A DNA stretch of 42,201 nt from an uncultured Eubacteriales bacterium (GTDB lineage: Bacteria; Bacillota; Clostridia; Christensenellales; Aristaeellaceae), in contig CACXBB010000024.1 in the NCBI GenBank assembly GCA_902765735.1, positions 1 to 42,201 on the forward strand. Reading direction: 5' to 3'. The notes beneath the pieces are model-generated. The model saw only the letters and a program-made list of their open reading frames with translations. It was not told where the DNA came from and searched no databases. Positions 5,353 through 25,076 of this stretch are shown piece by piece (position 1 is the first letter of the stretch; the number at the start of each line of letters is the position of its first letter). The position numbers were made by a program, and so were the translations under genes.

Positions 5353-5701
5353 TTTAGGGGACGGGGAGGGAGTAGGGAGTAGGGGCTACGACCTCTTCCG
5401 TCACGCTTCGCGTGCCACCTTCCCCTGAAGGGGAAGGCATTGTAGGGGCGATACCCCCATCGCCCGGAGCCCCGTCGCCGTAGGGGCGCTTCCGCTCTTG
5501 CGCCTGCCCTCATCGCCCGGAGGAACCCATCCCCGTCGTAGGGGCGGCGATGCGCCGCCCGCCCAATCAGAATCCATGGTTCCTGTCGGGCGGGCGCCGC
5601 ATCGGAGCCCCTACGAAGGTCGTGGTATCCGGCGGACGCCATGAATGGCGTCCCTACGATGGGATTCATACCGACCCAACCCCTACTCCCTACTCCCTAA
5701 A
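5353..5701. repeat. Composite nested palindromic repeat
   Basis: The outer arms are an inverted repeat (AGGGAGTAGGGAGTAGGGG on the left; its complement on the right, ending CCCTAAA). Nested inside are the left half of the 130-bp family A element (5387-5438, with stem CACGC-TTC-GCGTG), then several GTAGGGGCG hairpins, and a GGACGCCA/TGGCGTCC hairpin as at 21149-21308 and 29768-29897. No gene is visible in the whole 464-base gap (5239-5702) beyond this and the importer promoter. The element ends one base from the stop codon of the regulator gene. Confidence 0.8.
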
Positions 5702-15045: not shown

Positions 15046-15618
15046 TTATTGTTTCGCCGTGCCGTAGGCCCAGGCATAGCAGTACGCCTGGGTCCTGGCG
15101 GCAAAGGCCTCGGTCCTGAGCAGCTTGCGCATCTCTTCCCGGGTGTACCAGCCCGGCACGATCTCCTCGGCGTCGGAGGTGCTCTCCCGGAATGCCCCCG
15201 CGGCGACGCCGAACACGCAGATGTTGCGCTCGTTGGAGAAGCCGATGGCGCTGTAGCTGTTGTCCAGCACGTCGTCCACGCGCACAAGCTCGAGGCCGGT
15301 CTCCTCCCACAGCTCCCGGCGGGCGCTCTCCTCCGGGGTCTCGCCTTCGTCGATCAGCCCCGCGGGGAAGTTGTAGATCCACTGAGCCATGGCCATGCGG
15401 TACTCCCGGCTGACCAGTATGCGCTCGCCGGAGGGGTCCGTCAGGATCAGCACGACCGAATCCGGCTTTTTGTTCTGCAATGCCTCCAGCGTTCGGATGT
15501 CCCTGTTCCGGCTGATGATCTCGTAGGTCTTGGGACGGCCCGCCTCGGTGACGTAATCCACGTCGTACCGGGTGATGAACCTGCCCTCGTGGACCTTTCG
15601 GATGCCCTGATACTTCAT
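15046..15618 (-). CDS. Nudix hydrolase, ADP-ribose pyrophosphatase-like
   Basis: 190 residues. The Nudix box is complete: GLIDEGETPEESARRELWEE then TGLEL (G, E, REL, EE, G in the right spacing). The preceding REYRMAMAQWIYNFPAG is typical of ADP-ribose/sugar-nucleotide pyrophosphatases. It probably cleaves ADP-ribose or a related nucleoside diphosphate to monophosphates. ATG at 15618 after GGGAGG. It is the first gene of the Nudix-msrA-ridA group; the alpha/beta hydrolase is divergent. Confidence 0.92.
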   Translation of the reverse strand: MKYQGIRKVHEGRFITRYDVDYVTEAGRPKTYEIISRNRDIRTLEALQNKKPDSVVLILTDPSGERILVSREYRMAMAQWIYNFPAGLIDEGETPEESARRELWEETGLELVRVDDVLDNSYSAIGFSNERNICVFGVAAGAFRESTSDAEEIVPGWYTREEMRKLLRTEAFAARTQAYCYAWAYGTAKQ

Positions 15619-15654
15619 CGCTGTGACCTCCCGGGTTTAAAGTACACTTTACGG

Positions 15655-15683
15655 TTGCCCGTGGAACGAATGTATGGTAACAT
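15655..15683 (+). promoter_or_regulatory. Possible promoter of the alpha/beta hydrolase gene
   Basis: TTGCCC at 15655-15660 and TAACAT at 15678-15683 with a 17-base spacer, 40 bases before the ATG. The -10 is weak. Confidence 0.35.
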
Positions 15684-15723
15684 AGACACAGGCAAATTGA
15701 ACGCCGACGACGGAGGGATGACC

Positions 15724-16527
15724 ATGCTCTACAACGCGCGCAACGGACGCCTCGATCTGGCGGCCTTCCGGATGGATTACATCCGCTTCGGCACGGGTCC
15801 CAAGCCCCTCGTGCTGATTCCCGGCGTGGGCGACGGGCTCAGGACCGTGAAGGGCACGGCGCTGCCCTTCGCGCTTCTGTACTGGTCCCTCGCTAAGGAC
15901 TTCACGGTGTACGCCTTCAGCCGCCGGGTGGACCTGCCCGCGCACATGAGCACCCGGGAGATGGCGGCGGACCTGTTTAACGCCATGGAGGCGCTGGGCC
16001 TTACTGCGGCGGCGGTGGTGGGCGTGTCGCAGGGCGGCATGATCGCCCAGTGGCTGGCCATCGACCACCCGGAGGCGGTCGGCAGGCTGGTGCCGGTGGT
16101 GACGCTCAGCCGCCCCAACGACGCCATCCGGGAGGCCATCGCCGTCTGGTCGGACATGGCGCGGCGCGGGGACTACCGCGGCATCATGCTGGACACGGCG
16201 CGGCGCTCCTACTCCGAGAAGCGATTGAGGTCCGCCCTGCTGACGTACCGCCTGCTGTGCAATTTCGGCAGGCCGAAATCCTTCGACCGGTTCCTGACCC
16301 AGGCGGAAGCCTGCGTCACCCACGACGCCTGGGAGGATCTGCCCCGCATCGGCTGCCCCACGCTGGTGATCGGCGGCACGGAGGACAGGATCGTCACCGG
16401 CCAGGCGTCCCTGGACATGGCCGCACACATCCCCGGGTGCGAGCTCTTCATGTACGAAGGGCTCGGCCACGCCCTCTATGAGGAGGCGCCGGACTTCCAG
16501 CGGCGCATCGCGGAGTTTTGCGGGTAA
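15724..16527 (+). CDS. Alpha/beta hydrolase
   Basis: 267 residues with the alpha/beta-hydrolase order: strand LVLIPGVGDG (oxyanion region), nucleophile elbow GVSQGG with the catalytic serine, acid in GGTEDRIV, and histidine in GLGHALYEE. No signal peptide; cytoplasmic. The substrate is unknown: esterase or C-C hydrolase cannot be separated by sequence. The ATG at 15724 sits six bases after GGAGGG; earlier in-frame ATGs lack a site. It stands alone, divergent from the Nudix gene. A 130-bp palindromic element starts 14 bases after its stop. Confidence 0.88.
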   Translation: MLYNARNGRLDLAAFRMDYIRFGTGPKPLVLIPGVGDGLRTVKGTALPFALLYWSLAKDFTVYAFSRRVDLPAHMSTREMAADLFNAMEALGLTAAAVVGVSQGGMIAQWLAIDHPEAVGRLVPVVTLSRPNDAIREAIAVWSDMARRGDYRGIMLDTARRSYSEKRLRSALLTYRLLCNFGRPKSFDRFLTQAEACVTHDAWEDLPRIGCPTLVIGGTEDRIVTGQASLDMAAHIPGCELFMYEGLGHALYEEAPDFQRRIAEFCG

Positions 16528-16541
16528 ACGGGGTGCCGGGG

Positions 16542-16671
16542 GACGACCTCTTCCGTCATTTGCTTCGCAAATGCCACCTTCCCCTGAAGGGGAAGGCTTT
16601 TGGATGCGTTACCCTATGCCTTCCCCTTCAGGGGAAGGTGGCTGGCCGCAGGCCAGACGGAAGAGGTCGTC
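16542..16671. repeat. 130-bp palindromic element, family A, copy 2
   Basis: Same 14-bp terminal repeat, same length and order of hairpins as 348-477. The left triloop stem is identical, while the right GCA-loop stem reads CTGGCC-GCA-GGCCAG instead of CCGCC-GCA-GGCGG, changed on both arms. The unpaired centre differs (TTTTGGATGCGTTACCCTAT). It lies between convergent genes and could end transcription from both sides. Confidence 0.85.
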
Positions 16672-16692
16672 CCCCCTTCCGGTCCGGCCCCG

Positions 16693-17346
16693 TCATGCCC
16701 CCGCAGTAAAGGCTTCGATCTCCCTTTGCAGCAGGTCAAACACCTTCGCCACCAGATAGCCGTCCGCGACGGCGTGGTTCAGCCGCACGCTGACGGGCAT
16801 CATCAGCCGGTCGCCCTCCCGGCGGTAGCGGCCCCAGTTGACGATGGGCGCGAAGAACAGGTGCCCGTCGGGCAGCTCGATGTTCAGCGCGTCGTAGGAC
16901 AGCCAGGAGATGTAGGAGGAGTCGAACCAGTTGGGATGGTTCTGCGCGTCCAGGCCGTACTCCCGCGTCTGCTGGGCACGCTCAACGTCCCTCAGGGCGT
17001 TCGCGTAGAAGGTCTCATAGTCCGGGTCGTAGACCGTGTAGACCGGCGTGCAGGTCTCGGTGTCCTCGTGAAACACGTACTGGGTGGGGTGGATCACGTC
17101 GTAGCAGATCAGCTCGCCCGACTGCCAGAGGTAGCCCATCCGGTAATCCTCCCGGGAATTGAGCACCTTCGACAGTATATACAGAAAGTTGATGTAGAAC
17201 TTCGTGCCCGCGCGCCGGGAGTGCTCGACCAGCGCGGTCACGTCGATGCGCGCGGTCATGGAGGTGGAGCACCGGCAGTCCTCCGAAAAGTGCCTGAACA
17301 CGCCCTTCCGGTAGTAGGTTTCCACGTCGATGATCCTGTAATTCAT
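16693..17346 (-). CDS. CatA-like acetyltransferase
   Basis: 217 residues, the usual length of type A chloramphenicol acetyltransferases. The catalytic block is VSVRLNHAVADGYLVAKVF with H191 and D195, matching the His/Asp of CAT; the residue before the catalytic His is Asn rather than the usual His. SSYISWLSYDALNI matches the substrate-side strand. The cell's real acceptor is not evident, and many genomic relatives are not resistance enzymes. The start ATG overlaps the stop of the hybrid kinase by four bases (ATGA), so the two are coupled, an odd pairing of sensor and acetyltransferase. Confidence 0.85.
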   Translation of the reverse strand: MNYRIIDVETYYRKGVFRHFSEDCRCSTSMTARIDVTALVEHSRRAGTKFYINFLYILSKVLNSREDYRMGYLWQSGELICYDVIHPTQYVFHEDTETCTPVYTVYDPDYETFYANALRDVERAQQTREYGLDAQNHPNWFDSSYISWLSYDALNIELPDGHLFFAPIVNWGRYRREGDRLMMPVSVRLNHAVADGYLVAKVFDLLQREIEAFTAGA

Positions 17347-20300
17347 ATAAGCCTCCCCAGCGTCTCCTTGAGCTTATCGATGTCCACGGGCTTGGACAGG
17401 TGGGCGTTCATGCCCGCCTCGAGGCACTGTCGCACATCCTCCTCAAAGGCGTTGGCGGTCAGGGCGACGATCGGTATCGTCGCGGCGTCGGGCCGGGACA
17501 GCTTCCGGATCTCCCGGGCGGCGGTGAGGCCGTCCATGACGGGCATCCGCATGTCCATCAATATCGCGTCGAAGTGCCCCGCCGCGCTCTGTTCAAACAT
17601 CTCCACGGCCTTTTGCCCGTTCTCCGCCCATTCACAGGTCACGTCCTCCATCTCCAGAAGGTCCGTCAACACCTCGGCGTTGAGCGGCTGGTCCTCCGCG
17701 ATCAGCACGTGCCGGCCCTCGAAGGACGCGCCCGCCGGGACCTCCGCGGCCTGCGCCGGGGCCTCCGGTGGCGTATCGCCCGCGACCCGGCCCAGCGCCA
17801 CGGTCACGGTGAAGGTGGTGCCCAGCCCCTTTTCGCTCTCGACGCCGATCTCGCCGCCCATCATCTCCACGATGCTACGGGTGATGGCCATGCCCAGGCC
17901 GCTGCCGCCGTACTGGTTGGTGTTCGAGGTATCCTCCTGCGAGAACGCCTCGAACAGCCTGGGGATGAACTCCTTGTCCATGCCGATGCCGGTGTCCTCC
18001 ATGGTGAAGCGCAGCGCGGCCCGGCCGTCGGCGCGGTCGGTCTGCGCCACGGTGAGGGTGATCACCCCGGGGGCTTCGGTGAACTTGACGGAGTTGCCCA
18101 GTATGTTGATGAGCACCTGCTTGAGCTTCAGATCGTCGCCGACGAAGCACTCGTCCAGCGGCTCGACCCGGTTGCACACGAAGCGAAGCCCCTTGTCCTC
18201 GCACTGACCGCCGACGATGACGCAGATCTGCTCCATGAAGTCGCGGAAGGAGAAGCGGTCCTCCCGCAGGGTCATGCGGCCGGACTCGATGCGGCTCATG
18301 TCCAGTATATCGTTGATGAGGGACAGCAGGTGCCGTGCGCTCGAGCCGATCATCTCCAGCGCCTCACGGGTGCGCGGGGGCAGGTCCCCCTCCCGCAGGG
18401 CGATGCTGTCCAGCCCGATGATGGCGTTCATCGGCGTGCGGATCTCGTGGCTCATCTGGGACAGGAACTGGGATTTCGCCCGGTTGGCGCTGCGGGCTTC
18501 CTCCGCCGAGGCGATCAGCCGGCGGCTGGTCTGCGCCTGCCAGCGGATGAGCCGGTTGATCAGCGCCACGATGAACCCCAGGCAGGCCCCGAACAGCGCC
18601 AGCACCACCAGCGTCACGAGCACCACGCTGCCGTAGATGTTCCACCAGCGGTTGGCCACCACCACGGTGAAGCCGGAGCCGGTCCTGCGGCTTAAACACG
18701 CCGTGAGCCGGGAGGTGTAGTCCCGCATGGTGGTGACGCCCTGCCGGTGACATGCTTCCGCGTATTCGGTGTCCTCGATGCTGGTGGCGGTTGACTCGCC
18801 CATCTGGTAGGCAGCGTTCGGGTGGTTGATGATGACGCCGTCGGAGTCCACCAGGAAGGCGTAGCTGCGGCTGGTGTAGCTCTCGCCCAGCACGTTGATC
18901 AGCTTGTCGAGGAAGAAATCGACGCCGAATATGCCCAGGAACTCGCCCTACGGTCCGTAGACCACCCGCGAGAGGGTGACGCAGTAGTTGCCGCTCTGGG
19001 CGTCCAGGTAGGGCGCGGAGATGTTGAAGCCGTCGGCGGAGCGCTCGGTCTCCCGATACCAGGGGCGGGTCTCGGGCCGCTCGTCCTCGCCGGGCTCCCA
19101 GCCGTTGTTCATGATGACCGGGTGCTCGGCGTAGGGGTTGGCCATGTAGCACAGGGAGATGTCCGGGTAGCGGGCGCAAACGTCGTTGAGCCAGCGCACC
19201 GCCCCGTCGTAGTTGTCCAGGATCTCGGGCCGCGAGGAGATCACGTCCGTGAACATGTACAGGATGCTCTTTTGCTGGGTGAGCCACTCGCCCAGCTGGT
19301 TCTCATAGCTGTCGGCCTCCCGGTTCATGCGGGAGGTGCCCCAGTTGATCGATATGCCGACGCAGAACGCCAGCACGATCGCCAGGGAGACCACCATCGA
19401 CAGGATCACCCCGTTGCGCACCTTGCGGCTGGGGGCCTCCAGCGACTGGACCTCCCCCGCGTCCTCCCCCTCCGGCGCCCGGAGCGCCTCGGCGCAGGCG
19501 GCCATGTCGCCGACCAGCGCGGAGAGGTCCTCGCCCGCCTCCCGGACCTGCCCGATCAGCGCCGCCGGGGCCTCGCCCTCCCGGAAGAGCCGCGCGTCGC
19601 CCAGCCGCATCAGGCGGGCCGCAGAATCCCGCAGGCGGGCGGAGAAGTCGTCGATGCTGCGCCTGACCCCTGCGGCGGCGTCCTCCGCGTGACGGGCGCT
19701 TCGGTCGCCGAGCAGCCAGTACACCGCCACCACGGCCAGCATCAGCAGGTTGACGGACGCCAGTATGGCGATCTGCCGGTAGCTCTCGCCGTAGAGGGTG
19801 TCGGTGTTCACGTTGAGGATCAGATACCAGTTGTTGCTGGTCTCCGAGGAGAATATCACGCAGGGATGGCCGTCCAGCTCCACCCGGAAGCTGTCGTGGG
19901 CCTGGGAGGCGACCACGCGCCGGAGTATCTCCGCGTATTCCGGCAGCTTTTCGTCCGCCACCTCGCCCACCAGCGATATGTCCGTGTAGCCGGCGATCAG
20001 CCCGCCGGAGGTGACGATCATGGCGGTCTGGTCCCGGCCTCGGGTCATGCGGAGGATGGACTCCTGGGCCTTGGAGAAGTTCAGGTCCATGCCCACCACC
20101 GTCTCCCCGTCGGAGAGCAGCGTGGACACCGTAAAGCACATGTCGCCGGTGCTGGCGTCCACATAGGGCTCGGAGATGTACACCTCCCCCGGACAGTCCT
20201 GCGCGCCGATGTACCACACGCGCTCCTAGGCGTGGAAGTCCTTCGGTGCGTCGAAATCGGGGATGATGTGCCAGTCGCGCCCGGCGATGTACACGTTCAT

Positions 20301-20573
20301 GAAGTCGTCGTCGTAGAGATACTTGTCCCGCTGGGCGACGAAGTAGTCGGAGAGCGCCTCGCGGGACGCGCCGGACTCCATCAGCTGCTCGGCCCCGATG
20401 GCCACGCGGAGCACCTGGGTCTCCGCCTCGGTGATGGTGTCCTGCAGGTCGCTGCGGATGACGTCGAGCTGGGTGTTGCCGATCTCGTCGCTCTGGGCCC
20501 GGGAGAGGTTCAGTATCAGCGCGACGTTCATGGCGATGACCGCCAGCAGCGTCAGCGCCACCGCCAGGGTCAC
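17343..20573 (-). CDS. Hybrid sensor histidine kinase with tandem Cache domains and two in-frame TAG codons
   Basis: One frame of 1077 codons runs from GTG 20573 to TGA 17343, broken only by TAG at codons 116 (20226-20228) and 542 (18948-18950). Order: helix 2-22, Cache-like sensor (23-265), helix 266-288, cytoplasmic linker (289-387), helix 388-410, second Cache-like sensor, helix 649-672. Then HisKA with H709 (MSHEIRTPMNAI), HATPase (GSGLGMAI), and a receiver with D1007 (LMDMRMPVMDG). Both TAGs fall inside sensor domains, where the sequence on either side fits the family: FHA-TAG-ERVWYIGA and YGP-TAG-GEFLGIFGVD. Either TAG is read as an amino acid (Gln would fit) or this is a pseudogene with only 115 residues made. 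The start overlaps the upstream membrane gene (GTGA). Confidence 0.75.
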
Positions 20574-21109
20574 GCCGCCCCGGAAGCGGCGGTCCCCGTC
20601 GCGGGAGGACTCCCCCTGCGCCGCAAGCGCCGCGCCGCCGAACAGCGCGCGGCCTCAAAGAACAGGTCCACCCGAACGTGCCAGATTAAGCGGACCGCCA
20701 CGCCGACGGCCGCCACCGCCGCCATCGGCAAGAGCGCCGGGACGTCGCCCCCGCGGGCCTCCCCGGACCCCCTGCGGGTCAGAAGCGCGGCGGCGTACAG
20801 TATAAAGGCGACGAGCAGCCCGGTCTGAAGGATCAGGTCCGCCGCCTTAAGCCCGGACAGCACCCCCGCGCCCGCGCCGAAGGCCAGCGCCAGCCCCTCC
20901 GCGACGGCCGTCGCCGCGGAGAGCGCCAGTATGGCGGCCATGGCGGAGAAGAGGGCGCGCCCGTTCCCCCGCAGGGCCGACAGGCCCCGCCGCGGCGTGG
21001 AAGCGGGCCTCCGCCTCAGGCTGTAAACCAGGCAGAACACGGCCAGAAGGAGCGCCGCCAGGTTGAGGATGATCTCTGTCAGGGTGTGTTGCTCCTTCCG
21101 TATGCGCAT
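20570..21109 (-). CDS. Small four-helix membrane protein upstream of the hybrid kinase
   Basis: 179 residues with predicted helices at about 12-31, 53-76, 91-110 and 124-143. The last 28 residues (from ARCSAARRLRRR) are arginine/alanine-rich and look poorly constrained. Its TGA overlaps the kinase GTG (GTGA). However, the kinase frame is open back to 20654 and reads plausibly (LFGGAALAAQGESSRDGDRR), so a one-base frameshift near 20650 could hide a single longer protein. No function is recognisable. ATG at 21109 has no good ribosome-binding site; an AAGGAG lies just inside the frame. Confidence 0.55.
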   Translation of the reverse strand: MRIRKEQHTLTEIILNLAALLLAVFCLVYSLRRRPASTPRRGLSALRGNGRALFSAMAAILALSAATAVAEGLALAFGAGAGVLSGLKAADLILQTGLLVAFILYAAALLTRRGSGEARGGDVPALLPMAAVAAVGVAVRLIWHVRVDLFFEAARCSAARRLRRRGSPPATGTAASGAA

Positions 21110-21148
21110 GTGAGAGAGTGTGGAGTGTGGAGTTATAGAATGCCCCAC

Positions 21149-21308
21149 CGTAGGGACGCCATTCATGGCGTCCGCCGGACCGCACACCCCTCCGTAGGGA
21201 CGCCATTCATGGCGTCCGCCGGACCGCACGCCCCTCCGTAGGGACGCCATAATTGGCGTCCGCCGGACCACGCACCCCTTCGTAGGGACGCCATTCATGG
21301 CGTCCGCC
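21149..21308. repeat. Four tandem 44-bp hairpin repeats
   Basis: Units start at 21149, 21193, 21237 and 21281. Each has CGTAGGGACGCCATTCATGG then CGTCCGCCGGACC, with hairpin GGACGCCA/TGGCGTCC. Unit 3 has TAAT in place of TTCA in the loop while the stem is kept. Unit 4 is truncated. A half copy of the GTGTGGAG arm (21113-21134) precedes them. The array begins 40 bases upstream of the membrane gene and ends 11 bases from the GGDEF gene stop. Confidence 0.9.
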
Positions 21309-21319
21309 CGTTCATGACC

Positions 21320-23056
21320 TCAGCCTTCCTCCAACTCCATGGCGGTAACATAATACAGATCCCCGAAGGACTCGTGGCGCCTGAACCGCGCCTGTGCGAT
21401 CAGGTTTCTGACCCTGCCGGCCTTGGTGACGATGCGGAATCGGGTGACGATGAGCGCCGCCTCGTCGGCCCTACCCCGGTGCGCGTCCAGCACGCGGGCG
21501 CAGTCCTCGGGGTGGATGATGTTCTCAAGCCGGCCCAGCGAGAAACAGTTGAAGTCCTCCAGGTTGTCGCACTCGAACAGCCTGACGAGGTCCTCGTTCG
21601 CGTACAGTATGCCGGCGTCCTCCGCGCGGCAGATCATCCCGGCCCCCGGCAGACTCTTCAAGAGCTCCTTTTGCGTAAAGCCGAACTGCTCCCTCGACTG
21701 CTTGATCATGCCGGCGACGTAGCGCTGGCAGCCGTGCTTGCCGTTGAGCTTGACGTTGTAGAGGGCGCTGTCCACGTTCCGGGCCAGCTCCTCGCGGGTT
21801 TTGGCCTGGGCGGGATAGTCGGAGTAGCCCATGGAGATGGTGTAGGTGTAGGTCTTGCCCTGGGCGGTGGTGAAGGTCTGGTCCCGCTCGGAGGCGGCGT
21901 GGATCAGCGGCTCCGCCTGCTCCGCCGTCCTGCCGGGGATGAACACACCGAACTCGTCCCCGCCGGTGCGGGAGACCACGGCGGCGCCGTCGAACACCTC
22001 CACCAGGTTGCGCGCGAGGTTTTTGAGCGCCTCGTCGCCGATGTCGTGCCCGTACAGGTCGTTGATGATCTTGAAATCGTCGATGTCCAGAAAGACCTCC
22101 GTGGCCGTGCCGTCGGGGTTGGTCTTTAAGAACCTGTCGATCCGGTCCACCCGGCCCTTGCGGTTCAGAAGCCCGGTGAGGGGGTCGGTCTCCGCCATGA
22201 CGCTCAGCCGCTTGCGCTGGGAGAACATGATCATCAGCGCGGCGAAGGTCACCGTGAGCAGCACCACGAACAGCGCGCCGATGATGCTGGCGGCCAGGCT
22301 CTCCTTGCTGATCCTCCAGCCGCTCTTCGGGGCGACCTCCAGCTTCCAGGTGCATTCGCCCTTCCGGAACGTGGCCTACACGTATTGATCCAGCGCGTCC
22401 CGCGAGGCGGCGACCACCCGGTACTCGTCGCTGATCGGGGAGATGGTGGTGGACAGCATGTAGTCGTAGCCGAAGGATTCCAGCGATTCAAAGGTGTGCC
22501 TGAATATATCCGGCGCTTTGATGATGACGATGGTGAACCCCCAGAAGCTCCGGTTTCCCGAGAGATCCGTCAGAAACACCGGGTCCCGCACGGCGATGCC
22601 GGAGCCGCCCTGTTTGAGGTCGAAGGGCCCCTGCATGGTGACGGCGTCGTGCTCGATGCCGTAGGCGACCACGGGCCCGCGGGATGGGTCGTGGATCAGG
22701 TCGATCAGCCCGCCCTCGTTGCCCTCCATCGGGTAGATGTCCGTGACGACCCCGCCCGGCGCGATCTGTATGCTGCCGATGTAGTCCTCCATCAGGTTTT
22801 CGGCCACCGTCTGGAACCTCGGGATCTGCCCATGACCGCTGATGACGACCTCCTCCACCGCCTTGGCGATGGCGATGCCCTGCTCAAAGTCCCGCTCCAG
22901 CTCTCCCGTGTACACCTTGGCATTGAGCTCCGCCTGCGCGAGCGTGTGCGCGCTGTCCCGCTTGAAGGAATTGTCGGCCGATATCACAAATATCGCCGAC
23001 AGCAGTATGAACACGCCAATCGTGGCCAGTATGATGCGACGCCTCTCCGTACCCAT
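21320..23056 (-). CDS. Membrane GGDEF-PAS signalling protein with one in-frame TAG
   Basis: One frame of 579 codons, interrupted only by TAG at codon 227 (22376-22378). Helix 8-27, extracytoplasmic CHASE-like sensor (about 30-255), helix 256-278. The GGDEF domain (about 283-445) has an intact active site RTGGDEF (365-369) and DPLTGLLNR, so cyclic-di-GMP synthesis is expected. A PAS domain follows (about 463-578). No RxxD inhibitory site is visible. The TAG sits near the end of the sensor in LDQYV-TAG-ATFRKGECTWKLEV, where flanking sequence continues the domain. Promoter at 23153-23181. Either recoded or an amber pseudogene; see findings. Confidence 0.78.
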
Positions 23057-23381: not shown

Positions 23382-25076
23382 ATGCCATTTTCCGCTGTGA
23401 ACACCATCTGGGTGCTGCTGGGCGCGGCACTGGTATTCTTCATGCAGGCGGGCTTTGCGATGTGCGAGGCCGGCTTCACCCGGGCGAAGAACACGGGCAA
23501 CATCCTGATGAAGAACCTGATGGACTTCTGCATCGGCACGCCGCTGTACTGGCTGTTCGGCTTCGGCATCATGTTCGGCGCGGGCACGGCGGCCTTCGGC
23601 TGGATCGACCCCTTCATACTGAAGGACTACGCCCACATACTGCCCGCGGGCGTGCCGATCTGGGCCTACGCCATCTTCCAGACCGTCTTCTGCGCCACCT
23701 CGGCGACCATCGTGTCCGGCGCGATGGCCGAGCGCACGAAGTTCTCCGCCTACTGCGTGTACTCCGCGGCGATATCGCTGTTCATCTACCCGGTGTCCGG
23801 CCACTGGATCTGGGGCGGCGGCTGGCTGGCGGAAATGGGCTTTCACGACTTCGCCGGGTCCACGGCGGTCCACATGGTGGGCGGCGTGTGCGCGCTGATC
23901 GGCGCGAAGATGCTGGGGCCCCGCATCGGCAAGTACGGCAGGGACGGAAAGCCCCGGGCCATCCTCGGCCACAACCTGTCCATCGCGGCGCTGGGCGTGT
24001 TCATCCTCTGGTTCTGCTGGTTCGGCTTCAACGGCGCTTCCACCGTAGGCATGGACAGCGACGAACTGATCGCCAGCGCGTCCCTGGTGTTCTTCAACAC
24101 CAACCTCGCCGCCGCCGTGGCCACGCTGACCACCATGATCTTCACCTGGCTGCGCTACGGCAAGCCGGACGTGTCCATGACCTTCAACGCCTCCCTGGCG
24201 GGCCTGGTGGGCATCACGGCGGGCTGCGATGCCGTCAATCCCTTCGGCGCGGCCATCATCGGCCTGTGCTGCGGCATCGCGGTGGTGCTGTCGGTGGAGT
24301 TCTTTGACAAGGTCGTCAAAATCGACGATCCCGTGGGCGCCATCTCGGTGCACGGCGCGTGCGGCGCGCTGGGCACGCTGCTGACCGGCCTGTTCGCCAC
24401 CGGCATCTCCACGATGAAGGGCGTGTTCTATGGCGGCGGCTTTAAATTCTTCGGCGTGCAGCTGCTGGGCGTGGCGGCCACCATCGCCTGGACGGCGGTC
24501 GCCATCACCATCGTGTTCTCGATCATCAAGGCCACCATCGGCCTGCGGGCGGACGCCGCCGACGAGGTCATGGGCCTCGATCGCTCCGAGCACGGCCTGC
24601 ACACCGCCTATTCCGGCTTCACCATCATGGCTGACAGCATGCCGGAGGAAGAGGTCGTGGCGATCCCGGACGGGGAGTATGAAGCGCCCGTGCGCGTGGA
24701 GAAGGAGAAGGCCCCCGACGCGCCGGTCTACACCAACGTGCGCATCATCTGCCGCCCGGCCAGCCTGGAGCCCCTCAAGCGCAGCATGAACAAGATCGGC
24801 ATCACCGGCATGACCGTCACCAACGTCATGGGCTACGGCGCGCAGAAGGGCAAGCCCGAGTACTACCGCGGCACGCCCGTGGACGTCACGCTGCTGCCCA
24901 AGGTGCAGGTGGATATCGTGGTCAGCAAGGTGCCCGTGCGCATGGTGATCGAAACCGCCAAGCGCGTGCTGCATACCGGCCACATCGGCGACGGCAAGAT
25001 CTTCGTCACCGACGTGGAGAACGTGGTGCGCGTCCGCACCGGCGAGGAGGGCTACGACGCCTTGCAGTCGGAATGA
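23382..25076 (+). CDS. amt: Ammonium transporter fused to a C-terminal PII signalling domain
   Basis: 564 residues. Residues 1-385 are Amt: FQTVFCATSATIVSGAMAER, the pore histidines H164 (STAVHMVGG) and H324 (ISVHGACG). After a cytoplasmic linker (about 390-447), residues 449-561 are a complete PII (GlnB/GlnK) domain. It has a T-loop GYGAQKGKPEYYRG with Y495 at the position of the classic modified tyrosine, and a B-loop TGHIGDGKIFV. PII normally binds Amt as a separate trimer and blocks the pore; here one plug is tethered to each subunit. ATG at 23382 follows the near-perfect AAAGGAGGT. Expression is behind a leader terminator. No free glnK is seen next to it. Confidence 0.95.
   Translation: MPFSAVNTIWVLLGAALVFFMQAGFAMCEAGFTRAKNTGNILMKNLMDFCIGTPLYWLFGFGIMFGAGTAAFGWIDPFILKDYAHILPAGVPIWAYAIFQTVFCATSATIVSGAMAERTKFSAYCVYSAAISLFIYPVSGHWIWGGGWLAEMGFHDFAGSTAVHMVGGVCALIGAKMLGPRIGKYGRDGKPRAILGHNLSIAALGVFILWFCWFGFNGASTVGMDSDELIASASLVFFNTNLAAAVATLTTMIFTWLRYGKPDVSMTFNASLAGLVGITAGCDAVNPFGAAIIGLCCGIAVVLSVEFFDKVVKIDDPVGAISVHGACGALGTLLTGLFATGISTMKGVFYGGGFKFFGVQLLGVAATIAWTAVAITIVFSIIKATIGLRADAADEVMGLDRSEHGLHTAYSGFTIMADSMPEEEVVAIPDGEYEAPVRVEKEKAPDAPVYTNVRIICRPASLEPLKRSMNKIGITGMTVTNVMGYGAQKGKPEYYRGTPVDVTLLPKVQVDIVVSKVPVRMVIETAKRVLHTGHIGDGKIFVTDVENVVRVRTGEEGYDALQSE

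Follow-up and report, generated by a model that had tools for sequence, protein, structure and literature searches.

Introduction

In-frame stop codons in bacterial genes have been described before, and the closest published account that we found is that of Belinky et al. 2021 (PMC7918605). In the parts of that article available to us, in-frame stops shared by orthologues are reported with a ratio of nonsynonymous to synonymous substitution rates (dN/dS) below 1, and they tend to persist briefly. The same parts suggest widespread readthrough, with the assumption that the vast majority of events come without functional recoding (PMC7918605). Here we describe a stretch of 42,201 nucleotides (contig CACXBB010000024.1 of assembly GCA_902765735.1, from an uncultured Eubacteriales bacterium of the Aristaeellaceae), which we call the window. 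It holds two sensor genes on the minus strand, a hybrid sensor histidine kinase gene and a GGDEF gene. The kinase frame contains two in-frame TAG codons (TAG1 and TAG2) and the GGDEF frame contains one (TAG3).

Our locus resembles the cases of Belinky et al. in that in-frame TAG codons occur in frames whose dN/dS is below 1 and whose sequence past the stop is intact. As far as the accessible portions of that article go, its main set is made up of stops that are common to orthologues in at least two species, whereas here no compared orthologue shares them. Nonsense-mutated bacterial pseudogenes are also alike, with premature stops in single genes where relatives have sense codons, and in our case the kinase gene is otherwise damaged in relatives from the same genus. 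What sets our locus apart from such pseudogenes is that it has three stops of one kind, no frameshift and no visible relaxed selection. We believe that the three TAGs arose by recent nonsense mutation and that the sensor operon is dispensable, in a genome where TAG is an ordinary stop, and we give this explanation a probability of about 0.87.

Stop codons with apparent new meanings have also been discussed for yeasts, in a study whose authors we take to be Shulgina and Eddy 2021. In the part of the article that we could consult (PMC8629427), the apparent meanings in some yeasts are put down to pseudogenes, and the in-frame stops of pseudogenes are said not to be random. Genetic code 15 of crAss-like phages, in which TAG is read as Gln, is similar to our locus in that TAG is found inside open frames. 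Going by the sections of the phage account at hand (PMC9523058), our locus is otherwise different, since it lies in the genome of a cellular organism where TAG serves as an ordinary stop, RF1 is intact and no tRNA with a CTA anticodon was found, and by their domains both genes are sensor genes and not phage genes.

The two genes and their in-frame TAG codons

The positions of the two genes, of the three TAGs and of related features are given in Table 1. With Pfam, the kinase frame matches a Cache-type sensor, a second dCache sensor, HisKA, HATPase_c and a receiver domain, and the last three are all downstream of TAG2. Besides TAG1 and TAG2 there is no stop in this frame before the terminal TGA. 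The GGDEF frame has no stop ahead of its terminal TGA apart from TAG3, which is downstream of a CHASE match (residues 59-190) and upstream of the GGDEF and PAS_3 matches.

An initial annotation, made from the letters alone, had placed the three codons and the two frames correctly, with catalytic domains downstream of the stops in both genes. It had also placed each TAG in an extracytoplasmic sensor. TAG2 is inside dCache_1 and splits it into an upstream piece (profile 17-137), which scores above the curated cut-off, and a piece after the stop (profile 140-192), which at 23.5 bits is below the cut-off of 45. TAG1 directly precedes the MCP-like_PDC_1 match, which begins at profile position 58, and TAG3 comes after the CHASE match.

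Table 1. Features of the two sensor genes in the window, and damage to the kinase gene in relatives from the same genus.
Feature	Position or genome	Strand	Remarks
Hybrid sensor histidine kinase frame	17343..20573	-	1077 codons including terminal TGA; two in-frame TAG
TAG1	20226..20228	-	kinase codon 116/1077; first sensor domain
TAG2	18948..18950	-	kinase codon 542/1077; second (dCache_1) sensor domain
Candidate restart product of kinase, 516 amino acids	17343..18893	-	putative GTG start, 18 codons past TAG2
CHASE-like sensor, GGDEF, PAS gene	21320..23056	-	579 codons including terminal TGA; one in-frame TAG
TAG3	22376..22378	-	GGDEF-gene codon 227/579; beyond CHASE match
Candidate restart product of GGDEF gene, 315 amino acids	21320..22267	-	putative GTG start, 36 codons past TAG3
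Intergenic open reading frame between kinase and GGDEF gene	20570..21298	-	gene caller start at 21109
Kinase lesion	G003		in-frame internal deletion
Kinase lesion	G029		frameshift
Kinase lesion	G030		frameshift and two deletions
Kinase lesion	G005		large deletion with frame change
Kinase lesion	G004		large deletion
Kinase lesion	G032		in-frame deletion
Genus kinase-lesion loci	L119, L120, L121, L054, L122, L124, L125		

The two genes in relatives

We searched the DNA of 28 genomes of the genus, including the genome studied here, and scored 10 candidates per genome. Among the matches listed, TAG1 aligns with Ala in all three genus relatives (G029, G030 and G005). TAG2 aligns with Gln in G003 (DNA 93% identical) and also in G029 and G032, while G030 has Asp at this site. 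For TAG3, the matches listed give Ala in G005 and Glu in G030.

A wider set consisted of 7 stretches from the genus and 64 loci from a collection of species genomes, with four contigs counted in both. The titles of the collection records name, among others, Selenomonadaceae, Selenomonadales, Lachnospiraceae and Ruminococcus, and many of the records come from ruminants. None of the aligned rows has a stop at the TAG1 site (63 rows), the TAG2 site (68 rows) or the TAG3 site (3 rows); in each of two rows, L183 and L189, a single stop is found at another place in the match. The TAG1 column holds Thr in 17 rows, Pro in 8, Ala in 7 and other residues, with Gln in 5 of the 63. Asn, Lys and Thr are each found in 16 rows of the TAG2 column, again with others, and Gln is found in 6 of the 68. 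Because the residues vary and Gln is rare at both sites, the alignments indicate that Gln is no required residue at TAG1 or TAG2; for the TAG3 site, two relatives are known. It had been proposed that Gln would fit at all three sites. The relatives do have a sense codon at each site, but among the genus relatives Gln faces TAG2 alone.

Judged against unbroken homologues, the kinase stops are premature. At 52 of the 64 collection loci, a single stop-free match spans at least 1000 kinase codons. The other 12 loci are without such a span, and four genus contigs are among those 12.

Within the genus, all six relatives whose pieces we examined have lesions in the kinase gene (Table 1), among the matches listed that extend beyond the core common to paralogues. 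The double-sensor hybrid kinase, damaged in different ways in the six, may have been lost repeatedly. As the relatives are draft assemblies, some of what looks like damage could come from joins between paralogues. The GGDEF gene is open over its full length in the two relatives examined, G005 (581 amino acids) and G030 (582 amino acids).

A kinase paralogue in the genome studied here is interrupted (L191, at G000 C5:48500-53500). The break is at a segment with a run of Ns (L191:2823-2857), after which the gene resumes in another frame, and is probably due to an insertion or a faulty join.

Between the kinase frame and G003, dN/dS is 0.23, and for the GGDEF gene it is 0.17 against G005 and 0.26 against G030. 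Values below 1 in both frames are expected of a recent pseudogene too.

TAG as a stop codon in the genome

The genome is a draft of 73 contigs and 2.92 Mb, with a completeness of 96.7%. Genes were predicted from codon usage in a sample of 732,202 bases, made up of 35 stretches of this genome plus the window, or about a quarter of the 2.92 Mb. A gene caller of this type is prone to antisense and start errors (possible examples are the plus-strand calls at 23397-25076 and 15049-16527), and hence we counted a strict gene set as well. Outside the window, 71 of 565 called genes end in TAG (about 13%), 334 in TGA and 160 in TAA, and 25 further called genes run off a stretch. The strict set has 163 genes outside the window, with 21 TAG, 89 TGA and 53 TAA. 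When the window is included, TAG-ended genes number 76 of 600, and three of the window's five are the internal TAGs. With these three set aside, 2 of the window's 32 gene calls end in TAG. The earlier impression that TAG is nearly absent as a terminal stop is accurate for the window but does not hold for the genome, where TAG ends many genes in the ordinary way.

Past the stop, the per-codon coding score in the strict set is -0.26 for TAG, -0.27 for TAA and -0.30 for TGA. We scanned 10 of the 21 TAG-ended strict proteins with Pfam, namely nine of the ten top-scoring ones together with number eleven. Domains were present in every one of the 10, with UvrA, Lon, UvrD and RNB among those seen. TAG is an ordinary stop in the parts of the genome that we examined.

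RF1 scores above the curated cut-off and has its PVT and GGQ motifs, and RF2 has SPF and GGQ. We take these motifs to have their usual meaning for the two release factors. An intact RF1, which had been named as something to check, counts against recoding. The search for a suppressor tRNA points the same way: there is no CTA anticodon among the 42 tRNA matches, all 42 of which overlap an ARAGORN call with an anticodon assigned. As the tRNA set is incomplete, this is strong but not absolute evidence. PylS (TIGR02367) is above cut-off in none of 14 genomes of the genus, with a best score of 23.6 bits against 178.15.

Finally, we looked for stops inside matches to large families across the whole genome. 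None was found in ABC_tran (0 of 106, with 150 of 171 candidates scored), HATPase_c (0 of 31) or BPD_transp_1 (0 of 57), and one of 49 GGDEF matches has a stop, which is a TGA that ends its frame. TAG is thus inside none of the 243 matches of these four families (106 + 49 + 31 + 57), while recoding had been expected to put TAG in place of residues in conserved proteins. Two candidates for further signs of recoding were rejected. At C17, a GGDEF match closes with a TGA, which also ends the frame, and a TAG in the C5 kinase paralogue is the first codon of its match, at the N-run break in that gene. Other genomes of the genus have at least three more kinase matches with a stop (two TAA, one TGA).

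Are the three stops unlike ordinary gene ends?

In the 732 kb, 18 stops (8 TAA, 7 TAG and 3 TGA) have strong coding signal in the same frame both before and after them. All 15 of those outside the window are followed by a start codon 0-8 codons later, as with neighbouring genes. The next start is 2 codons after TAG1, 18 after TAG2 and 36 after TAG3, so by this distance only TAG2 and TAG3 stand out in the sample. That TAG1 is internal is known from homology, as the matches in relatives extend across it.

That all three stops are TAG is not unusual under this codon usage. Single-step nonsense changes would lead to TAG in 62-71% of cases given the codon usage of the genome, estimated with 16 pairings of a codon table with a set of mutation weights, and the chance that three of three are TAG is 0.24-0.36. 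There is a trap here for anyone scanning such sequences. The genome is rich in CAG and GAG codons, and several TAGs without any TAA or TGA are no sign of recoding.

Evaluation of the explanations

In the explanation that we favor, the kinase and the GGDEF gene were ancestrally single genes, and the three amber mutations would have been acquired in this lineage. RF1 would read TAG as a stop, and translation would halt inside or just past the sensor domains, leaving pieces 115 and 226 residues long that lack the catalytic domains. The signalling pair would then be off or, if the internal GTG starts are used, would be reduced to sensor-less catalytic pieces. We infer the loss of function, its recency and the use of internal starts. 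The loss looks recent because the frames carry neither a frameshift nor a premature TAA or TGA, and amino-acid changes are not in excess on this branch. It is in keeping with a kinase gene that shows damage in the genus relatives we examined. The absence of an amino-acid-change excess on the kinase's own branch fits recent loss, although a retained low-level function would look alike.

Several observations weigh against this explanation. There is no Asn or Ile tRNA among the 42 matches, so a CTA tRNA could sit in sequence that was not assembled. The Ala (GCG) that faces TAG1 and TAG3 is more than one step from TAG, and intermediate changes have to be assumed, with Glu in the second relative at TAG3. 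Three clean nonsense changes with no frameshift in 1656 codons make for a tidy decay. Nor is relaxed selection visible on the kinase's own branch. When G029 serves as the outgroup, 785 kinase codons show 39 silent and 33 amino-acid-changing differences on that branch, against 44 and 35 on the branch of the sister, although the sister kinase gene has an internal deletion and is a poor standard for this comparison. Overall, the results support independent nonsense mutations, which was the second of the two readings offered by the initial annotation.

Partial readthrough was part of its other reading. In leaky amber readthrough, RF1 would be active and a near-cognate tRNA would read a few UAGs, giving a little full-length sensor, with TAG acting as a control of dose. 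The dN/dS below 1 in both frames and the intact catalytic domains would agree with this, and bacterial in-frame stops with dN/dS below 1 are described in the portions of PMC7918605 that we had. On the other hand, the stops are common to no relative that we compared, the 42 tRNA matches include no CTA tRNA, a full-length kinase would need two readthroughs per protein, and the low dN/dS would mostly predate the mutations. The sequence alone is compatible with readthrough, but no result here favors it, and we consider it improbable. Slightly more doubtful still is the specific idea that the single GGDEF TAG, and with less likelihood the kinase pair, are leaky stops that allow a very low dose of the two paired sensors by means of an unmodified tRNA.

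The TAGs could instead come from assembly or from a mixture of strains, and be minority or wrong consensus bases. The assembly is fragmentary with its 73 contigs, and many in-frame stops found in databases are expected to be artefacts, according to the consulted parts of PMC7918605. Three base errors that all make nonsense codons, without any indel, would however be unlikely in two genes separated by 0.7 kb. Comparing the called proteins with the 732 kb by tblastn, self-matches included, gave 992 pieces, and the six that hold a stop include no convincing broken frame. Five of these six are at 28-30% identity, with the stop within 20 residues of the end in four and about 30 residues from it in one, and the sixth (window 41215) is antisense to a called gene. 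We rate an artefact as just as improbable as readthrough.

By far the least credible is that TAG is a sense codon (Gln, as in code 15, or pyrrolysine), genome-wide or in a subset of genes: it could draw on three TAGs in otherwise open frames, on the few terminal TAGs in the window and on the Gln facing TAG2 in three of four genus relatives, but it is contradicted by RF1, the tRNAs, PylS, the ordinary use of TAG, the family scans and the residues other than Gln that genus relatives have at TAG1 and TAG3.

The region around the two genes

For the open reading frame between the two genes, Pfam gives no match at E 0.001. Its first part falls in an array of 44-nucleotide repeats, and the true gene is therefore probably shorter than the open reading frame. 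A palindromic repeat, GGACGCCA and TGGCGTCC separated by 2-6 bases, is found in tandem at 21142-21308 between the kinase and the GGDEF gene. It is also present at 5634 and 29833, with 52 copies in the 732 kb sample, and it resembles a repetitive extragenic palindromic (REP) element.

On its other side, the kinase gene is adjoined by a gene at 16693-17346 with a Pfam match to CAT (chloramphenicol acetyltransferase) over residues 1-207 of 217. The window also has a direct repeat of 142 nucleotides, at 341-482 and 16535-16676, with the two copies 87% identical and 16 kb apart.

Implications

If the TAGs were leaky after all, they would be a reversible silencing of a sensing operon without losing it. 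The locus is most likely a case of gene-breaking nonsense mutations and not of a new genetic code. Recognizing the three TAGs as recent nonsense mutations would clear away a misleading hint of stop-codon recoding in a bacterial genome.

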